A stretch of 39,892 nucleotides of DNA from Deltaproteobacteria bacterium (GCA_024639555.1 JAHEID010000004.1:1-39892); one strand, 5' to 3'. Numbered from the stretch's first letter, positions 20,078 through 33,525 are shown. A program made the numbers and translations. The notes: generated by a model not told the origin, from the letters alone.

Positions 20078-21331
20078 ATGCCGCAACTTTCAGAAAAACA
20101 ACGAATCGTTATAACCGGTGTTGGGCTGGCAGCTCCCAATGCCGATAATCTGCAGGATTATCGCAGCAGCCTCCTGGCAGGTAAGAGTGGTATTGACGAG
20201 ATTGAACTGCGTTATGTCGGCAAGGTACCGGCAGGCATATGTTCCTTCCCGGAGACGAAATACCGCAAGAAGAAGGAAAATAAACGTGGGACCAGGGCAG
20301 GTTGCCTGGGGGTGTATGCTGCCAATGAAGCCATGCAGGATGCCGGCCTTGCAGATTACCTGCACTACAGTCAAAACAGGACCGGTGTTTATATCGGCTT
20401 AACCGAACACGGCACGGTTGAAACAGAAAACGAAATTTATAATTTAAGCCAGTTTGCATTTAATACCGACTTCTGGAGTCATCACCATAATCCACGCACG
20501 GTACTGAACAACCCGGCCGGTGAAATCACCATGAACCTTGGCATAACCGGTCCGCATTACTCCATCGGCGGCGCCTGTGCTGCCGGCAATGCCGCTTTGA
20601 TCCAGGGGACGCAGATGCTTAAACTCGGCGAGGTCGACCTGGCTCTTGCCGGAGGCATCTCTGAAAGCACCGGTTCTTTCGGGATTTTTGCAAGTTTTAA
20701 GGCAGAAGGCGCTCTTGCCGTGCATAAGGATCCAACAAAGGCATGCAGACCCTTTGATACCGGGCGCAATGGCATCGTGGTCTCTGAAGGTGCTTGTGTT
20801 TTTGTCTTGGAAAGGCTCGATAAGGCCCTTGCCAGAAATGTGCGCATCTACGGCGAGCTTGTCGGTTATGCCATGAATTCGGATGCCAGGGATTTTGTGC
20901 TGCCCTATGGTCCGAGACAGGCTGAATGCATGCAGTTGGCCATAGAACGGGCCGGATTGACTCCTAAAGATATCGATATTATCAACACCCATGCAACAGG
21001 CACAAAGCAGGGCGATATTGAAGAATGCAACGCCATACACTCCCTTTTCAAGGACTGCCCCGATACTTATATAAACAATACCAAAAGCATCATTGGGCAT
21101 GCCATGGGTGCGGCAGGAGTCCTGGAACTGGCAGGAAACCTGCCGGCCTTTGCAGACAACCAGGTGCATCCAACGATTAACGTGGATACACTTGATCCGG
21201 CATGCGCCTTACAAAATCTCGTGGCCAATGAACCGAGGCAGCTTGCTACAGTCAATACCATACTGAACAATTCTTTTGGCATGGTTGGCATAAACTCGGT
21301 GGTTGTCGTCAGAAAAATGACCTCTGCCTGA
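20078..21331 (+). CDS. FabF-like beta-ketoacyl-ACP synthase
   Basis: Catalytic triad retained: GGACAAGN (Cys), NTHATGTKQGD (His), NTKSIIGHAMGAAG (Lys/His). Confidence 0.93.
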   Translation: MPQLSEKQRIVITGVGLAAPNADNLQDYRSSLLAGKSGIDEIELRYVGKVPAGICSFPETKYRKKKENKRGTRAGCLGVYAANEAMQDAGLADYLHYSQNRTGVYIGLTEHGTVETENEIYNLSQFAFNTDFWSHHHNPRTVLNNPAGEITMNLGITGPHYSIGGACAAGNAALIQGTQMLKLGEVDLALAGGISESTGSFGIFASFKAEGALAVHKDPTKACRPFDTGRNGIVVSEGACVFVLERLDKALARNVRIYGELVGYAMNSDARDFVLPYGPRQAECMQLAIERAGLTPKDIDIINTHATGTKQGDIEECNAIHSLFKDCPDTYINNTKSIIGHAMGAAGVLELAGNLPAFADNQVHPTINVDTLDPACALQNLVANEPRQLATVNTILNNSFGMVGINSVVVVRKMTSA

Positions 21332-21540
21332 TACATAAATCAGGAAAAACGGCTGAAATTAAGATTTTACTGAAAATTGTCGGCATCGCATAAAGCACGA
21401 TGCGGACAGGTAATGCTCACTTAACACATTGATATTATTAGGCCCTGTTTCTGACTGAGGGACTTTTTAAGAATTAATCAAGATTAAATTGAAAGAATAA
21501 TATTATTCATATATATTATATGATTTTAAGGAGATAATTA

Positions 21541-21792
21541 ATGACAATTGATGAAATAAAAAATGTGGTCCTGGAGATAATCCAGGATATAGATGACGAA
21601 GCTGATCTTGAGAACCTGAACCCAGGCGAAGCGTTGCGGGATCAGTTGGACCTTGATTCCATGGATTTTCTTGACATCGTCATGGAACTCCGTAAACGAT
21701 ACCAGATTCAAATCCCCGAGGCGGACTACCCCCAACTCGCCACCCTGGATAGTTGCGTCAACTATCTTATACCCCGCCTGAAAGCCGCTTAA
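21541..21792 (+). CDS. Acyl carrier protein
   Basis: 83 aa, helix plus DLDSMDFLDIVMEL phosphopantetheine-site motif; aaggag SD. Confidence 0.92.
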   Translation: MTIDEIKNVVLEIIQDIDDEADLENLNPGEALRDQLDLDSMDFLDIVMELRKRYQIQIPEADYPQLATLDSCVNYLIPRLKAA

Positions 21793-21801
21793 TAATGCAC
21801 G

Positions 21802-23223
21802 GTGAGAGAATATCCCCTATTGATCATTGGCGGCGGCCTGTCAGGATTGGCCGCCGGTATCCGCTTCGCCCGTTTTGGTCAGAAAGTACTCATCCTGGAA
21901 AAACACTCTAAAGCAGGTGGCCTCAACTCCTACTATTATCGCAAGGGCAGACTGCTTGAAACCGGCCTGCACGCCATTACTAACTATGCCCCGCCTGAAG
22001 ACAAACATGCACCCCTGAACCGCTTGCTGCGACAGTTAAAAATTCCGCGGCGAACCTTAAAGCTTCGGCAACAGCATACTTCTGAAATACTCTTCCCGGG
22101 GAGAGCAAACCTCTGTTTTTCAAATGACTTCAGTTTGCTGCAGTCGCAGGTTGCTAAACGTTTTCCCGATTCAGTCAAGCAGTTTGAAAAAATGCTGACA
22201 GGGATTGATGCATACGATGCTTTCACCCCGCGCCCCAAAGTCTCGGCCCGAAAATTTGTTTCAACCTTTCTGCAAGACCAACTGCTCGTGGAAATGATTT
22301 TCTGCCCTTTGATGTTTTATGGCGGCAGCGATGAGGATGATATGGACCTCAGCCAGTTTGTCATTCTCTTTCGCTCCATATTCCAGGAGGGATTCTTCAG
22401 ACCTGAAGGAACGATCAAGGATCTGCTTGGTCTTCTCCTGCAGCAATATCAGGATTTTGGCGGCGAAATAGAATTTTCCTCCGGCGTTAAGGAAATTCTT
22501 GCAGTAAATAACAGAATCTCAGGAATTCGGACCTATGCAGGTGAAGAGATCAGCTGTGATTATCTTATATCAACGGCAGGTTTGCCGGAAACAAGAAGAC
22601 TTTTCACAGTTCCAGAAGCAGCTGCAACATTCTCAGAGCTGCCCGAGGACAAAACTTCAGGCCGATTAAGTTTCCTGGAATCGATCTACCTTTTTAACAA
22701 ATCCGCCCGTAATCAACTTCCTCAAGACCGTACTATCATATTTTATAACCTGTCTGGGAAATTCTCATACAGACGTCCTGATGATGCCGTAGATCTCAAC
22801 AGCGGCGTCATCTGTTTTCCCGATAACTTTGAGGGAAGCCGGCAAGACGATATCATTCCGTTGCGGGTCACCCATCTTGCAAATTATGAAAAATGGCTCC
22901 ATGCTTACGATGATGCCGACAAATCACGTTATACAGCCATGAAAACAGACTGGACTGAACGCTCCAGGGAAGTTGTCGGCAAAATTATTGGGAATTGTAG
23001 TGAAAACATTGTATATGAAGACTCTTTTACACCTGTGACTATTGAACGGTTTACTTCCCGGACACAGGGCGCGGTTTACGGCAGTTCGGAAAAAATAAAG
23101 GACGGCACAACAAACTTTGAGAACCTTTACATAGCCGGAACCGATCAGGGATACCTGGGGATAGTTGGAGCCTTGCTCAGCGGTGTTACAATGGTCAACC
23201 AGCACATCTTCAACAGGATGTAA
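21802..23223 (+). CDS. CrtI/phytoene desaturase-like NAD(P)/FAD-dependent oxidoreductase (1)
   Basis: GTG start; LLIIGGGLSGLAAGIRFARFGQKVLILEKHSKAGGLNSYYYRKGRLLETGLHAI; C-terminal NLYIAGTDQGYLGIVGALLSGVTM. Confidence 0.88.
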   Translation: MREYPLLIIGGGLSGLAAGIRFARFGQKVLILEKHSKAGGLNSYYYRKGRLLETGLHAITNYAPPEDKHAPLNRLLRQLKIPRRTLKLRQQHTSEILFPGRANLCFSNDFSLLQSQVAKRFPDSVKQFEKMLTGIDAYDAFTPRPKVSARKFVSTFLQDQLLVEMIFCPLMFYGGSDEDDMDLSQFVILFRSIFQEGFFRPEGTIKDLLGLLLQQYQDFGGEIEFSSGVKEILAVNNRISGIRTYAGEEISCDYLISTAGLPETRRLFTVPEAAATFSELPEDKTSGRLSFLESIYLFNKSARNQLPQDRTIIFYNLSGKFSYRRPDDAVDLNSGVICFPDNFEGSRQDDIIPLRVTHLANYEKWLHAYDDADKSRYTAMKTDWTERSREVVGKIIGNCSENIVYEDSFTPVTIERFTSRTQGAVYGSSEKIKDGTTNFENLYIAGTDQGYLGIVGALLSGVTMVNQHIFNRM

Positions 23224-23255
23224 TCGTACCTTTATAAACATTTCATTAATTCGAT

Positions 23256-24665
23256 ATGCTGCATAATTCAATCAAGGGAGCAAATGGGCGCTACGATGTT
23301 GTGGTAATCGGCTCAGGTCTTGGCGGTCTTACTTCTGCAAACCGTCTGGCCAGAAGCGGCCACACCGTCCTTCTGCTTGAGCATCACCATCAGCTTGGCG
23401 GTCTGGCCACGTGGTTTAAACGCAAGGGACACATCTTTGATGTTTCACTGCACGGTTTCCCCCACGGCATGGTGAAAACCTGTCGTAAATACTGGAACCG
23501 TGAGATCATGGAATCCATTGTCCAGCTTAAAAAAATCGTTTTTGACAATCCCCAGTTTTCCCTTACCACGACATTTGACCGGCAGGACTTTACCTCCATC
23601 CTTATAAATAAGTTCAAAATATCGCAGGCAACAATAAATGATTTTTTTAACACTGTTGCCTCCATGAATTTCTACGACGATCAGAGCATGTCAACCCGTG
23701 AGCTCTTTGAAAAATTTTTTCCCGGCCGCGATGATGTCCATCGGCTGCTCATGGAACCAATAACCTATGCCAACGGTTCCACCCTTGATGACCCTGCTAT
23801 TACCTACGGTATAGTTTTTTCAAATTTCATGAATAAGGGGGTCTTTACCTTCAAGGGAGGAACTGACCACCTTATAGGTATGATGGCAGAAGAACTGGTC
23901 AAAAACGGAGTGACCATCTGCAAGAATTCCAAAGTGGATAGGATTGTCATTGAGAATGGCAAGGTACAGGGTGTCCTGGTAGGCGAGCGTTTCATAGAAG
24001 CGGACAGCGTGGTGTCAAACAGCGGTATTCTCAATACAATCTATGACCTGACAGGCAAAGACGCCTTTCCGGCTGAATTCCTGGGCAAAGTAAAGACAGT
24101 TCGGGTCAATACCTCAAGCTGCCAGGTCTACATTGGCATAAAAAAAGAAGAAACGATTGACGACATCGGCGACCTGCTTTTTGTTTCCTCTGCAGAGCAA
24201 TTTACCTCCGATGAACTGCTGGATATGCATACCAGAAGCAGAACCTTCTCACTCTACTACCCAAAAACCAGGCCTGGCCATAACCGCTTTACAGTGGTTG
24301 CCTCAATGAACGGCAGATTTGACGACTGGGACAGGCTCAATGAAAATACGTATGAAGCTGAGAAACAAGCCATGATCAAAAGGACCCTGGTAGACCTGGA
24401 ACGCTATATTCCAGGTGTTCGACAAAAAATTGACTGGCTTGAGGCCGCAACCCCGAAAACCATTCAGCGCTATACTCTGCACACCAAGGGAACTTCTTTC
24501 GGAACAAAATTTGAAGGGTTGGATATTTCCCGCTCCATTTTTAAGGCGGTACCGGGTCTATTTCATGTGGGTTCTGTGGGAATTATCATGTCCGGCTGGC
24601 TGGGGGCCATTAATTATGGAGTTATTGTGGCAAATGATGTTGATGGATACATACGTGGCTTGTAA
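23256..24665 (+). CDS. CrtI/phytoene desaturase-like NAD(P)/FAD-dependent oxidoreductase (2)
   Basis: VVVIGSGLGGLTSANRLARSGHTVLLLEHHHQLGGLATWFKRKGHIFDVSLHG; C-terminal GLFHVGSVGIIMSGWLGAINYGVIVANDV. Confidence 0.88.
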   Translation: MLHNSIKGANGRYDVVVIGSGLGGLTSANRLARSGHTVLLLEHHHQLGGLATWFKRKGHIFDVSLHGFPHGMVKTCRKYWNREIMESIVQLKKIVFDNPQFSLTTTFDRQDFTSILINKFKISQATINDFFNTVASMNFYDDQSMSTRELFEKFFPGRDDVHRLLMEPITYANGSTLDDPAITYGIVFSNFMNKGVFTFKGGTDHLIGMMAEELVKNGVTICKNSKVDRIVIENGKVQGVLVGERFIEADSVVSNSGILNTIYDLTGKDAFPAEFLGKVKTVRVNTSSCQVYIGIKKEETIDDIGDLLFVSSAEQFTSDELLDMHTRSRTFSLYYPKTRPGHNRFTVVASMNGRFDDWDRLNENTYEAEKQAMIKRTLVDLERYIPGVRQKIDWLEAATPKTIQRYTLHTKGTSFGTKFEGLDISRSIFKAVPGLFHVGSVGIIMSGWLGAINYGVIVANDVDGYIRGL

Positions 24666-24757
24666 TTATTTCTATGATATATTCCCTGATGTAAGATCAG
24701 TTTTCGCGTCTTGCTATTTATTTAAACTCAAAAATACAATGATTCCAGGAAACCTAT

Positions 24758-25510
24758 ATGACTGACTTTCATGGAAGAAAAGCTGTAATTTCCGGCGCGA
24801 CAAAAGGTATCGGAAAAACTATTGCCAAAGCTTTCCTTGAAACCGGCGCCACGGTAATCGGCGTTTATGGTTCCGACCGCAATGCAGCCGACGCATTCAT
24901 GCTGGAATGGGAGGCAGATGCTTCCTACCGGGAAAACAGGCTTTTTTTATTTCCCTGTGATGTATCTGACGAATCCGCAGTGCTGGCGTTCTTTGCAGAA
25001 GTCGAAGAAAAATTCGATATAATTGACATCCTGGTAAATAATGCCGGTATCCGGAGAGATGCAGTCCTTGCCATGATGCATTCCGCTGACTGGCACCGGG
25101 TTATCGAAGTCAACCTGACAGGAACATTCAATATGTCAAAACAGGCGGTACTGCTCATGATGAAGCAGAAATATGGCAGAATAATTCATATCACTTCACC
25201 CATGGCCCATATGGGCTTTGAAGGACAGGCCAACTATGCTGCTTCCAAAGCCGGCCAGATCGGCATGATGCGCTCCCTGTGCAAAGAAACAGCAAAACGC
25301 AGGATTACAGTCAACTGCGTTTCACCCGGCTTTATCGACACCGAGTTGCTTGAAGGGCTCTCTGCAGAGCAATTGGACAAATACAAAAAGATGGTACCCA
25401 TGAAACGGTTCGGCAAGACGGAGGAAGTTGCTGCTGCCGTGCTTTTTCTGGCTGGGGAGCAGGCATCATATATCAGCGGTGCAGTCCTGGAGGTCACAGG
25501 TGGGCTTTAA
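24758..25510 (+). CDS. 3-oxoacyl-ACP reductase (FabG-like SDR)
   Basis: SGATKGIGKTIAKAF; LVNNAGIRRDAVLAMM; GQANYAASKAGQIGMMRSL (YxxxK); PGFIDTELL. Confidence 0.93.
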   Translation: MTDFHGRKAVISGATKGIGKTIAKAFLETGATVIGVYGSDRNAADAFMLEWEADASYRENRLFLFPCDVSDESAVLAFFAEVEEKFDIIDILVNNAGIRRDAVLAMMHSADWHRVIEVNLTGTFNMSKQAVLLMMKQKYGRIIHITSPMAHMGFEGQANYAASKAGQIGMMRSLCKETAKRRITVNCVSPGFIDTELLEGLSAEQLDKYKKMVPMKRFGKTEEVAAAVLFLAGEQASYISGAVLEVTGGL

Positions 25511-25949
25511 TCGCGAGATTTACGAGGCAATCCCGCACCGGCCTCCTTTTCTCTGGATTGATTCGATTATATCGTTCGATACAGGGACAATTGTTACGGA
25601 AAAATTCATTTCACCGGACCTTGATTTTTTTAAAGGCCATTATCCGGATTATCCCATAATGCCCGGAGTTCTTCTCTGCGAAGCTGTTTTTCAGACTGGT
25701 GCCCTGTTCATGGCCAAATTGCTGCAGGAAGCCGGACACACCCAAGGGAGCGGGGGAAAAACTCCTGTACTTACCAGAATAAAGGCGGCAAAGTTCAAAA
25801 GAGAAGTGAAACCCGGCGATACGATCAGGATGCATGTTAGCCTTGATGAAAACATCGGCAACGCCTGGTTTTTTAAAGGCAAGGTACTTATTGGCAGCAA
25901 GACGGCTGTAAAAGTGGATTTCGGTTGCACCATAACCGATATGAATTGA
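25500..25949 (+). CDS. 3-hydroxyacyl-ACP dehydratase (FabZ-like hotdog)
   Basis: Start reassigned to GTG at 25500, overlapping fabG by 11 nt; IPHRPPFLWIDSI...FFKGHYPDYPIMPGVLLCEAVFQTGA keeps catalytic His and Glu. Confidence 0.9.
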   Translation: MGFNREIYEAIPHRPPFLWIDSIISFDTGTIVTEKFISPDLDFFKGHYPDYPIMPGVLLCEAVFQTGALFMAKLLQEAGHTQGSGGKTPVLTRIKAAKFKREVKPGDTIRMHVSLDENIGNAWFFKGKVLIGSKTAVKVDFGCTITDMN

Positions 25950-26195: not shown

Positions 26196-26894
26196 GTGCA
26201 AAATTTAAGCATTTTCCAAATGATTATTGATGCAGGTCCGATGGTGAAGTTTGTTATGCTTCTCCTCCTTGTTTTTTCGCTGGTTTCATGGACCATAATA
26301 ATTATGAAACATCTATCGTATAAAAAGGCCCGGTCTGAAAGTGAATTCTTCCTTGACGTCTTCTGGAAGAGCAAGAACCTTGCCGATGCCTATAAAGCTG
26401 CCAAGGAAATACCGGACAGTCCTGCAGCTTCAATCTTCATCCTCGGATTTAATGAACTGCAGAAACTTGGCCGCAGCCGGGTGTCAAAAAAGAGTTCCGA
26501 CAACACCCTTGAGATGCAGCTGGCCAGCATGGATAACCTGAAAAGAGCGCTACGCAAAGCGGAAAGCAAACAAATGACCCGCCTGGGCATGTATTTATCC
26601 TTCCTGGCAACCACCGGAAGCGCCGCACCTTTCATAGGTCTTTTCGGTACGGTCTGGGGAATTATGACATCATTCCAGGAGATCGGCATGCGCGGCTCTG
26701 CCTCACTTGCCGTGGTCGCCCCAGGTATTTCCGAGGCGCTCGTTGCCACAGCAGCCGGGCTTGCCGTCGCGATTCCATCGGTTATCTTTTATAACTATTA
26801 TTCCAATAAGCTCTCTAGCCTGGAAAATGATATGCAGGGCTTTTCTGCCGATTTTCTGAACCTGGTGGAAAGGGACCTGTTGTCCAAAGCATAA
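26196..26894 (+). CDS. tolQ: TolQ/ExbB-family proton channel
   Basis: GMYLSFLATTGSAAPFIGLFGTVWGIMTSFQEIG...VAPGISEALVATAAGLAVAIPSVIFYN. Confidence 0.93.
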   Translation: MQNLSIFQMIIDAGPMVKFVMLLLLVFSLVSWTIIIMKHLSYKKARSESEFFLDVFWKSKNLADAYKAAKEIPDSPAASIFILGFNELQKLGRSRVSKKSSDNTLEMQLASMDNLKRALRKAESKQMTRLGMYLSFLATTGSAAPFIGLFGTVWGIMTSFQEIGMRGSASLAVVAPGISEALVATAAGLAVAIPSVIFYNYYSNKLSSLENDMQGFSADFLNLVERDLLSKA

Positions 26895-26915
26895 TTTTTT
26901 TGAGGATTGAAAGCC

Positions 26916-27338
26916 ATGGCATTCGGTAGTACCAACGGCTCAAAAAGACTGGTTTCCGAGATCAACGTAACTCCGCTTGTTGATGTGATGCTCGTGCTTC
27001 TCATTATTTTCATGGTAACCGCCCCCATGATGACCCAGGGAGTCGATGTAGACCTCCCTGAGACGACTGCAAAACCCTTACGGCAGAAGGAAGATCCGCT
27101 CATTGTCACCATCAAGAAAGATGGCCAGATATATTTTAACAAAATCAAGCTGGATCAGACCCTGCTTAAACAGCAGTTGAGCGCCCTGTCAAGGGCTGAG
27201 CATGAAAAAGCCATATTTTTGAAAGCAGACAAGTTGGTGCCTTACGGTCTTGTTGTCTCGGTCATGGCGGATATCAAGGATTCCGGTTTTGACAAACTTG
27301 GGATGATAACCCAGCCGGCTGATGACAAGAAGCCATGA
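26916..27338 (+). CDS. tolR: TolR/ExbD-family protein
   Basis: SEINVTPLVDVMLVLLIIFMVTAPMMTQGVDVDLPET; ATG at 26916 preferred over track TTG at 26907. Confidence 0.92.
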   Translation: MAFGSTNGSKRLVSEINVTPLVDVMLVLLIIFMVTAPMMTQGVDVDLPETTAKPLRQKEDPLIVTIKKDGQIYFNKIKLDQTLLKQQLSALSRAEHEKAIFLKADKLVPYGLVVSVMADIKDSGFDKLGMITQPADDKKP

Positions 27339-28249
27339 AACTTCTTGGTTCTAACGGCTTAACAACTCCACTCAGCATGTTATCCACCGATTGGCGTAAA
27401 CCTTTTAATATATCCATTGGCCTGCATGTTATAGTCATGGCCCTTGCCATGCTGGCGCCGAGCCTCTTCGACCGGCAGCCAAGACTGCCGGAAATATATA
27501 CAGTAAACCTGTTCACCGCTACTGAGGTAGCAGAACCCGAAGCGCGGGCTTCTGCAAAGCCTGCGGCCAGACAACTGGAACCGGAGACAAAAAAACCGGC
27601 TGTCTCCATTCAACCTTCAAAACCTGAGGTTGCACCCCCTGTTAAGACCTCAATTGCCAAACCGGTTTCCCTGCAACCACTCAAGGAAAAGGTCAAGCTC
27701 GGCAAGACCAAGGAAGAGGAAGAACTGGATAAGGCAAAATTGTCTCGGGTCCGACAACGACTCAAAGCAAGTGCCGCGCAAAAAGAAACCAGGGAAGCGG
27801 CAGATGAGGCCGCAAAAGATGCTGTCAGCAAACTGGCCGATGCCCTCAAGACAAGTCCCGCAATAACAACAGGGACCGCTGCAAAAGCAGCCGGCCCATC
27901 TACTACTACACAATCAGCGGGAATCTCAGGCCCCAGGGGAACCGGCATCGAACCTGATTTTTACATGAAACAGTACCTATCAACCGTTTACCAAAAAATT
28001 CATGAACATTGGGTCTTGCCAGACTTGCAAAATTGGGATAATTCTCTTGAAGCCGTATTGGTTATCACCATCAGGAGAGACGGGGTCGTTACAAACAATT
28101 TCTTTGAAAGAAAATCTGACAACATCTATTTTAACCAGTTTGTTTTAAAAGCGCTAAAAGATGCTTCACCGCTGCCCCCATTTCCCAACCAATTAAAAGA
28201 AAACACCTTGGAGATAGGTTTGCGATTCAAACCAGGTGAGCTCTATTAA
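27335..28249 (+). CDS. tolA: TolA/TonB-family energy transducer
   Basis: ATGA overlap with tolR; TM helix, charged Ala/Lys-rich middle, C-terminal TonB-like YLSTVYQKIHEHWVLPDL...LEIGLRFKPGELY. Confidence 0.85.
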   Translation: MKLLGSNGLTTPLSMLSTDWRKPFNISIGLHVIVMALAMLAPSLFDRQPRLPEIYTVNLFTATEVAEPEARASAKPAARQLEPETKKPAVSIQPSKPEVAPPVKTSIAKPVSLQPLKEKVKLGKTKEEEELDKAKLSRVRQRLKASAAQKETREAADEAAKDAVSKLADALKTSPAITTGTAAKAAGPSTTTQSAGISGPRGTGIEPDFYMKQYLSTVYQKIHEHWVLPDLQNWDNSLEAVLVITIRRDGVVTNNFFERKSDNIYFNQFVLKALKDASPLPPFPNQLKENTLEIGLRFKPGELY

Positions 28250-28270
28250 CCCTTTTTCTGCTGAAACGTT

Positions 28271-29563
28271 ATGACTCTTCGAAAAATAGTATATGTGAGC
28301 GGTCTGGCTTTGTTTATGGGCTTTTTGTTCACCTCCATGGCCCAAGCACGGGTTTACCTTGATATAACCTCCCCTGATTTTCGCAAGGTTCCCTTTGCTG
28401 TCCCCTATTTCACAGATAAAAACAATCCCGGCAGAATTGACAAGGCTGATCGGGACATGACAGCCCTGCTTACAAAGGCCCTCGAATTCCATGGCTTTAT
28501 TTCAGTGGTTCCACCGGACAAATATGGCGGCTACAATAACATTGACTGGCCCAAGCTGGGCGTTGATTTCACCATTGTCACCGATTACAAGACCTCTGGA
28601 GGGACCATGTCCTTTGAGTTCAGGCTGATTGATGTAGCCGAGGACAAAATGCTTTTCGGCAAACGCTACAAGGGCTCTCCGGACATCCGGGATAAAATGA
28701 TACTGCGGTTTTGTAATGAGGTCATTTACCAGCTCACCGGCGAACGGGGCATCAGCCTGTCCAATATAACTTTTGCTTCAGACGTAGCCGGCGGTTATAA
28801 GGAAATTTTTGTCTCAGATGTTCTGGGCAGGAATATCAAGCAGATAACGAAGCACAAAAGCTTGACGGTCTCTCCCAAATTCTCCCCTGACGGCAAACTG
28901 CTAGCCTATACAACTTATCACCCGGGAAACCCGAATCTTTATATCACCGACTGGCAGGAAGCTAAAACCACCAAGTCCGTTTCCCGTCGTCCCGGGCTCA
29001 ATCTTGCTCCCGCCTGGTCGCCTGACGGTAAAACCATGGTCATTACCCTCAGCACAGAAGGCAATCCCGACCTCTACCTGATAAGTAAGGAAGGCACCAT
29101 TCTCGAAAGGTTGACAAACAATACCGGCATTAATGTATCTCCGGCCTGGTCTCCGGATGGCAAACATATTACCTTTGTATCCGACCGCAGCGGCACTCCA
29201 CAAATTTATATCATGAATGTAAAGACAAAATCTGTTAGACGTATTACATTTCAGGGTAATGACAATACAGAGCCAAGCTGGTCGCCCGATGGCGGGTGGA
29301 TTGCTTACTCTGGACTGTATGACGGCAACTACCAGATCTTCATAATAAAACCTGAGGGAGGACAGGCCCTGCAGCTCACATGGTACAGGGATGACCATGA
29401 ATCACCTTCATGGTCACCGGATTCAAGGCAGGTAGTATTTACACGCCGCCATAATAATGACAGGGATATCTGTACGGTCTTCAGAAACGGCACAGGTTTT
29501 CGCACCCTGTTCGAACTTAATGGCCACCAGTCATCACCGGAATGGTCAACAAGAATGGATTAA
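28271..29563 (+). CDS. tolB: Tol-Pal system beta-propeller protein TolB
   Basis: Repeated P.WSPDGK/SWSPDG blades (LNLAPAWSPDGKTMVITLS; INVSPAWSPDGKHITFVSD). Confidence 0.95.
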   Translation: MTLRKIVYVSGLALFMGFLFTSMAQARVYLDITSPDFRKVPFAVPYFTDKNNPGRIDKADRDMTALLTKALEFHGFISVVPPDKYGGYNNIDWPKLGVDFTIVTDYKTSGGTMSFEFRLIDVAEDKMLFGKRYKGSPDIRDKMILRFCNEVIYQLTGERGISLSNITFASDVAGGYKEIFVSDVLGRNIKQITKHKSLTVSPKFSPDGKLLAYTTYHPGNPNLYITDWQEAKTTKSVSRRPGLNLAPAWSPDGKTMVITLSTEGNPDLYLISKEGTILERLTNNTGINVSPAWSPDGKHITFVSDRSGTPQIYIMNVKTKSVRRITFQGNDNTEPSWSPDGGWIAYSGLYDGNYQIFIIKPEGGQALQLTWYRDDHESPSWSPDSRQVVFTRRHNNDRDICTVFRNGTGFRTLFELNGHQSSPEWSTRMD

Positions 29564-32850: not shown

Positions 32851-33525
32851 ATGTCCAGAGTCATTGCGGTCTTACTTATACTCCTTACAAGCCCCTCCGG
32901 CTTACTGGCTGAGAATTCTTCAGTAATACCGGAGTGTGAAATTGTCATTGATGATTTTGCCAATGGCATCAAGCCCGAGTGGAAGTCCAAATCATTCAAA
33001 GGAACAACAGAGTACACCTGGATTAATGAGGACGACAGAAGGTATGTCAGGGCAACCAGCAGGGGTACAGCATCCGGACTCTATTATGAGATAGAGATTG
33101 ATCCGCAGCAGTACCCCTACCTCACATGGCAGTGGAAGGTGGACAGTATCATTGCCAGTGGCGATGCCTCACAGAAATCAGGTGATGATTATGGCGCCAG
33201 GATATATGTTGTCTTCCCCTCCTTTTTGTTTTGGAACACCAGGGTAATAAATTATATCTGGGCCAACAAGCTGCCCAAAGAAAAGGCTGTGCCGAATCCG
33301 TATACTGCAAATGCTATTATGATCAGTGTTGAATCCGGCCTGGCCGAAACCGGCAAATGGATTACAGAAACAAGAAATATTTATGAAGATTACAAGCGTT
33401 TCTTTGGCAAAGAACCGTCAAAGGTCGGTGCCATTGCGATCATGACCGACACCGATGATACCGGGGAAAGTGTTTCAGCAGATTACGGGCCGATAGCACT
33501 GTGTGGCCGCGATCCCCAAAAATAA
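32851..33525 (+). CDS. DUF3047-like secreted protein
   Basis: Signal peptide; IDDFANGIKPEWKSKSFKGTTEYTW...YPYLTWQWKVD...GDDYGARIYVVFPS. Confidence 0.75.
   Translation: MSRVIAVLLILLTSPSGLLAENSSVIPECEIVIDDFANGIKPEWKSKSFKGTTEYTWINEDDRRYVRATSRGTASGLYYEIEIDPQQYPYLTWQWKVDSIIASGDASQKSGDDYGARIYVVFPSFLFWNTRVINYIWANKLPKEKAVPNPYTANAIMISVESGLAETGKWITETRNIYEDYKRFFGKEPSKVGAIAIMTDTDDTGESVSADYGPIALCGRDPQK

Follow-up and report, generated by a model that had tools for sequence, protein, structure and literature searches.

In bacteria such as Shewanella, Colwellia and Geobacter bemidjiensis, a Pfa-type polyunsaturated fatty acid (PUFA) synthase and the OleABCD proteins make up the hentriacontanonaene pathway (PMC6463001, PMC3098273, PMC4882568). 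OleA there draws 16:4 chains from the acyl carrier protein (as acyl-ACP) towards a 31:9 hydrocarbon (PMC6463001), and C31:9 has been modelled as two 16:4 chains (PMC4882568). C31:9 was also found in 2009 in Desulfotalea psychrophila (Desulfocapsaceae), in which C31:8 and C31:9 make up 4% and 1% of total lipid (Rattray et al. 2009, PMC2649909), without a known route to its polyunsaturated chains. Here we analysed a 39,892-nucleotide stretch of a Deltaproteobacteria bacterium draft genome (GCA_024639555.1, JAHEID010000004.1:1-39892; hereafter the window), in which positions 20078 to 25949 hold six genes for a ketosynthase (KS), an ACP, two CrtI-type flavoproteins (CrtI1 and CrtI2), FabG and FabZ. 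This module is probably a dissociated (type II) anaerobic polyunsaturated acyl-ACP synthase that feeds the Ole proteins, and the gene set as a whole is a concrete candidate route to such chains.

Rattray et al. (PMC2649909) list saturated or monounsaturated fatty acids for D. psychrophila, whose polyunsaturation is in its hydrocarbons; they report no ladderanes, and its genome yielded no polyketide synthase of the PUFA type. Its type II fatty acid synthesis (FASII) clusters contain three genes resembling phytoene dehydrogenase, two of them with consecutive numbers (DP2405-DP2406), and the authors proposed for such clusters a novel anaerobic PUFA pathway that would explain C31:8 and C31:9. From isotope data they read monounsaturated fatty acids as the hydrocarbon precursors. 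The window module resembles DP2405/DP2406 in having an adjacent phytoene-dehydrogenase-like pair in a FASII cluster, and judged by its description that cluster is very probably the same module. This is the related cluster in a sulfate-reducing deltaproteobacterium that an earlier reading of the window, made from sequence alone (the sequence-only reading), had mentioned. Within the host's order, C31:8/C31:9 evidence has been published for D. psychrophila only.

A six-gene module and its continuation into fabI and ole genes

The host draft genome is 2.4 Mb and approximately 85% complete. We name its order Desulfobulbales because a plasmid in a same-order genome (G048) matches NC_020305.1 at 100% identity; that record belongs to Desulfocapsa sulfexigens DSM 10523, a member of the Desulfocapsaceae within the Desulfobulbales. 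G048 has CrtI1, OleA, OleC and the FabI-like gene. The six genes are as follows.

20078-21331, plus strand: KS, a module-specific, FabF-like elongating ketosynthase (PF00109/PF02801; TIGR03150 fabF, 307 bits against a cut-off of 493.75)
21541-21792, plus strand: dedicated ACP (PF00550; Ser in DLDSMD)
21802-23223, plus strand: CrtI1, a CrtI-superfamily flavin adenine dinucleotide (FAD) enzyme in a subfamily of its own, GTG start (PF01593; below all NCBIfam cut-offs)
23256-24665, plus strand: CrtI2, a second, CrtI/CrtISO-like FAD enzyme (PF01593; best NCBIfam model carotenoid isomerase, 110 bits against a cut-off of 587)
24758-25510, plus strand: FabG, 3-oxoacyl-ACP reductase (TIGR01830, 273 bits against a cut-off of 298; YAASK)
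25500-25949, plus strand: FabZ, 3-hydroxyacyl-ACP dehydratase (PF07977; NF000582, 111.8 bits against 113; PHRPPF, PGVLLCE)

Pfam and NCBIfam matches together with motif inspection bear out the sequence-only reading of six same-strand open reading frames with intact catalytic motifs at these positions. The KS has its Cys in GGACAAGN, its His in NTHATGT and its Lys/His in NTKSIIGH, and both CrtI proteins carry GxGxxG FAD motifs. The latter are indeed two different phytoene-desaturase-like enzymes, with a mutual identity of only approximately 23%; CrtI2 is the more conserved, at 54-77% identity across relatives. Successive gaps between the genes are 209, 9, 32, 92 and -11 bp, the last being an 11 bp overlap of fabG with the most likely fabZ start, a GTG at 25500 preceded by GGAGG (the mechanical reading frame start is 25428). 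There are only two KS genes in the host genome. The module KS forms its own clade with 100% support, apart from the host FabF and both anammox FabFs, and the second gene, a FabF on another contig (G000:C190), scores better than the module KS; the module KS is not the housekeeping FabF.

In several Desulfobulbales families the module continues on the same strand into fabI-like, oleA, oleB, oleC and oleD genes, whose products in these relatives are a FabI-like reductase, a beta-ketoacyl-ACP synthase (KAS) III-like protein, an alpha/beta hydrolase, an AMP-binding enzyme and a 3-beta-hydroxysteroid dehydrogenase-like protein. The full set is KS-ACP-CrtI1-CrtI2-FabG-FabZ-FabI-OleA-OleB-OleC-OleD. 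Family f44, from outside the order, has the same set in another order as eleven contiguous genes, KS-ACP-CrtI1-OleA-OleB-OleC-OleD-CrtI2-FabG-FabZ-FabI, with the ole genes interleaved between CrtI1 and CrtI2. Of the 34 genomes that have OleC and CrtI1 on one contig, 32 have the two no more than 25 kb apart. The nearly complete dedicated elongation cycle of the sequence-only reading stands as far as the six genes go, within a pathway enlarged by the FabI-like protein and OleABCD. Its proposal that the FAD enzymes replace an enoyl reductase fails, since the gene set includes a dedicated FabI-like protein, whose host copy lies beside oleA.

In the host itself, contig C228 carries the fabI-like gene and oleA, and contig C7 carries oleB-C-D. 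Host OleA can be aligned from end to end with X. campestris OleA (3row), at 232 bits, and its residues E97, C123, H276 and N306 are the counterparts of E117, C143, H285 and N315. The OleC (olefin beta-lactone synthetase) family model NF045786 gives 503.9 bits for the homologue in locus L029, below its cut-off of 900. In the Desulfocapsaceae the six genes precede tol, with oleB-C-D approximately 10-20 kb away in most mapped genomes; in the window's own family they adjoin tol, not ole. Two relatives have further genes at the module. Iron-sulfur and FAD/NAD electron-transfer genes lie directly upstream of the eleven-gene run in G394 (L090 2518-7863), and in G278 (L089 380-1750) a B12-binding radical S-adenosylmethionine (SAM) protein adjoins CrtI1 on the same strand, after OleA-KS-ACP-CrtI1.

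Distribution of the module and co-occurrence with OleA

Co-occurrence was scored over 96 genomes of the order, with 395 genomes drawn from the host's phylum as an out-of-order sample, and synteny was mapped in 20 loci of relatives. CrtI1 orthologues occur in 69 of the 96 order genomes and CrtI2 is adjacent in nearly all mapped loci, so the six-gene grouping is far beyond chance. In most relatives the ACP gene stays adjacent to those for KS and CrtI1, and the loci as a whole show strongly conserved synteny. CrtI1 is present in every one of the 54 Desulfocapsaceae genomes with a completeness of 90% or more and a contamination of 5% or less. Outside the order it was found in 10 of the 395 phylum genomes, at 43-46% identity.

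CrtI1 and OleA were both present in 62 of the 96 genomes, both absent from 24 and discordant in 10 (62/7/3/24 for both, CrtI1 only, OleA only and neither; Fisher p = 2e-13, with ancestry disregarded). Among genomes at least 90% complete the same counts are 52/4/3/18, and OleC and the FabI-like gene follow the pattern. Families f4, f9, f10 and f14 have no CrtI1, OleA or OleC, and neither do G081, G068 and G017, which belong to families otherwise carrying them. Six of the 10 module genomes outside the order have OleA, none of them in family f26. Several discordances (G052, G059, G062, G006 and G078) are contig-edge or completeness effects; for example, locus L057 of G062 begins just before fabG, the CrtI2 match of G052 is at base 131 of its contig and the fabI of G059 is at a contig end.

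A Pfa synthase as the true source of PUFA was considered and rejected. No match to the Pfa synthase model TIGR02813 was found in the host genome. Pfa-like megasynthases, which 19 of the 96 order genomes have, are not associated with CrtI1 (p = 0.78, descent disregarded), and 50 genomes have CrtI1 and Ole with no Pfa-like genes. Contigs G066:C103 and G081:C91 contain open frames of approximately 3200 amino acids that match PfaA and, weakly, the CrtI FAD domain; judged by sequence, these are possibly large fused synthases.

The module's immediate surroundings recur as well. Upstream in the window is a divergent thioredoxin-reductase-like gene, and tolQ-tolR-tolA-tolB begins 246 bp downstream (26196-29563). 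Tol-pal adjoins the module in the window's family and in the Desulfocapsaceae (mapped in L096 and L102), and in out-of-order family f36 tol is on the module's other side, with tolB beside KS. The adjacency is a recurrent link with cell-envelope genes. A DUF3047 protein in the flank (32851-33525) is unrelated to the module. Promoter and terminator scans gave nothing specific.

A candidate route to C31:9 and its alternatives

Methylene-interrupted double bonds need 2,3 and 2,2 isomerisation, for which Pfa synthases use dehydratase (DH) domains. FabA was not found in the recovered host genome, an approximately 85% complete draft, and the only other FabA/FabZ-family gene is a FabZ between genes reading as lpxD and lpxA; another isomerase would therefore be needed. 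Two distinct, conserved and ACP-linked CrtI/CrtISO flavoproteins would fit the two isomerisation jobs without net redox change. We propose that the module KS extends the chain on the module ACP, and that FabG and FabZ give a trans-2-enoyl-ACP in every round. The dedicated FabI-like reductase would remove the double bond in part of the rounds; in the rest, both CrtI-type flavoproteins would shift or re-set it, and it would then persist through the following extension. The simplest form of this would be a redox-neutral isomerisation, like that of carotenoid isomerase with reduced FAD, with one CrtI enzyme making the 2,3 shift and the other converting trans-2 to cis-2, as the FabA-type DH domains do in Pfa; we infer these individual roles of CrtI1 and CrtI2. 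OleA would then take the finished, 16:4-like polyunsaturated acyl-ACP and condense two chains head-to-head, and OleB, OleC and OleD would yield a long polyunsaturated hydrocarbon such as C31:9. A dedicated ACP together with a dedicated OleA fits the drawing of 16:4 from acyl-ACP by OleA.

The module would in this way supply the chains of C31:8 and C31:9, and the gene set may explain how C31:9 is made without the usual giant enzyme. A fuller version is tentative, and we hold it to be somewhat less probable than its negation: that the CrtI pair acts as acyl-ACP double-bond isomerases, where Pfa has FabA-type domains, in an uncharacterised O2-independent dissociated PUFA synthase that is core to the Desulfobulbales and contributes importantly to the C31:9-type hydrocarbons of anoxic environments.

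Domain matches and structure models place both flavoproteins in the CrtI superfamily. The CrtI model TIGR02734 gives 57.5 bits for CrtI1 and 88.2 bits for CrtI2 against a cut-off of 238.1. Structure predictions have a mean confidence (pLDDT) of 91.7 for CrtI1, with 4rep and 4dgk as the closest folds, and of 87.7 for CrtI2, with 4rep closest. The models are confidently of the CrtI superfamily, and fold alone leaves isomerase, saturase and desaturase unseparated. In trees made by a quick method, which warned of long branches for CrtI and KS alike, CrtI1, CrtI2 and anammox CrtI form separate clades, the first two also apart from Pantoea CrtI, whose row has a very long branch. The FAD enzymes form clades of their own in these trees, and their separation from characterised carotenoid desaturases is tentative given that branch. 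Family scores, the tree and the neighbouring genes led us to reject a plain carotenoid function.

Several observations weigh against the reading of the module as a supplier of Ole. The Fisher p-values disregard common descent; the module, fabI-oleA and oleB-C-D are three unlinked groups on separate contigs in the host; and the module occurs without an OleA orthologue in family f26 (three genomes) and in G098. The divergent f2 pair, which has a version of the module and no Ole, and G011 (98% complete), which has OleA, OleB and OleC without a CrtI1 match, are real exceptions. The f2 version (L028 of G012; G025) is a reduced KS-ACP-CrtI1-FabZ, with no CrtI2 or FabG, beside mqn-type menaquinone genes; its FabZ start is visible in the DNA only. 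The closest solved folds of CrtI1 and CrtI2 are carotenoid desaturases, CrtD (4rep) being the nearest, and the isotope reading fits true desaturation equally well.

These last two points favour the original idea of Rattray et al., in which saturated or monounsaturated acyl-ACP made by fatty acid synthesis would be oxidised stepwise by both flavoproteins, with a quinone acceptor, and then passed to Ole; hydrocarbon isotope values also resemble those of some 16:1/18:1 isomers (PMC2649909). However, the module has its own KS, ACP, FabG, FabZ and FabI-like protein, which a post-synthetic desaturase would not need, and we consider this route unlikely. Unreduced KS-FabG-FabZ cycles could alternatively build a conjugated polyene on ACP, which CrtI saturases or isomerases would trim. 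Aryl-polyene systems, in which a KS, ketoreductase and DH without an enoyl reductase yield conjugated polyenes, are a precedent, and CrtI2 scores best with a carotenoid-isomerase model, but the module co-occurs with an enoyl reductase of its own, the FabI-like protein, and what has been measured for the family is C31:8/C31:9 and no pigment. Such a scheme is improbable. We likewise assign a low probability to the chains going mainly to membrane lipids or glycolipids, with Ole co-occurrence reflecting shared ancestry and habitat. Near the module, f26 has MBOAT and glycosyltransferase genes, which suggests another fate of the chains there (L093 of G178 has the module, a FabI-like gene and, close by, genes for MBOAT acyltransferases and for a glycosyltransferase of GT28 type), and the module lies beside tol-pal in the host and elsewhere while the host ole genes are unlinked. 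Against this, ole genes are interleaved with the module in f44 and contiguous with it in many families of the order, and the polyunsaturation of D. psychrophila is in hydrocarbons, not in the fatty acids listed.

The ladderane-like half of the unusual-lipid pathway suggested by the sequence-only reading did not survive comparison with anammox bacteria, whereas the polyunsaturated acyl half did. The FabZ of PDB 7qv0, which we took to be an anammox protein, was used as a scan query to fetch 19 loci and 13 genomes, and the matches were then confirmed as Scalindua, Brocadia, Jettenia and Kuenenia. Their protein-family list is similar, and Rattray et al. noted synteny between the D. psychrophila and Kuenenia clusters (PMC2649909). 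The kinship sought in these loci was not found: anammox CrtI is 24-28% identical to CrtI2 and approximately 22-25% to CrtI1, and the anammox FabFs, which are nearer the host housekeeping FabF, are in separate clades from the module KS. No OleA orthologue was found in the 13 anammox genomes, in which only FabH-like proteins match, at 22-29%. No radical SAM gene is among those annotated beside the module in the window, and D. psychrophila has no reported ladderanes. We therefore rejected membership in a ladderane group, and a ladderane or ladderane-precursor cluster common to anammox bacteria is very improbable. A special kinship of the window FabZ with that of 7qv0 was also rejected, its best PDB match being 3d6x.

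Comparison with known systems

A supply of C31:9 chains by the module would be common to a whole order of sulfate- and sulfur-metabolising bacteria, and its study is now split from ladderane biosynthesis, with which the genes have been associated since 2009. Should the CrtI-type proteins act on acyl-ACP, this would be a new O2-free enzymology for polyunsaturated chains, carried out by small, separable proteins of use in engineering, and it would bear on how polyunsaturated hydrocarbons are interpreted as sediment biomarkers. No paper naming both oleABCD and phytoene was found, which is weak evidence of novelty, most subscription papers being outside the search.

Anammox ladderane candidate loci of the Kuenenia kuste3603-3608 type also combine ACP, FabZ, FabF and CrtI-like genes in one locus, arranged as ACP-FabZ-FabF-FabF-CrtI. 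They differ in their two FabFs and in an unmatched gene of approximately 486 amino acids beside CrtI (the radical SAM kuste3608 in Kuenenia), as well as in having no OleA orthologue and a CrtI and KS that are not orthologous to those of the module. CrtI1 and CrtI2 share fold and FAD motifs with CrtI, CrtD and CrtISO, but score far below the family cut-offs, form their own clades and have KS, ACP and Ole as genomic partners. The 2009 hypothesis of Rattray et al. is the literature precursor of the present one. In the sections consulted it makes no connection to OleA, a module FabI or a family-wide distribution, and derives the hydrocarbons by fatty-acid decarboxylation; the present analysis adds the coupling to Ole, the partner FabI and the distinction from anammox.

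The module is best compared with the Pfa-Ole hydrocarbon route, of which it would be the type II counterpart. In both, a polyunsaturated acyl-ACP made anaerobically would be supplied to OleA and passed on to OleBCD, with C31:9 as the proposed end product, and in both the supply genes either adjoin ole or lie at another place in the genome. The two differ in build: the Pfa enzyme is a type I megasynthase whose DH domains are FabA-like, whereas the module, found in a host without Pfa-like genes and among carriers that mostly lack them, consists of separate type II proteins with FabZ only and two CrtI-superfamily flavoproteins.

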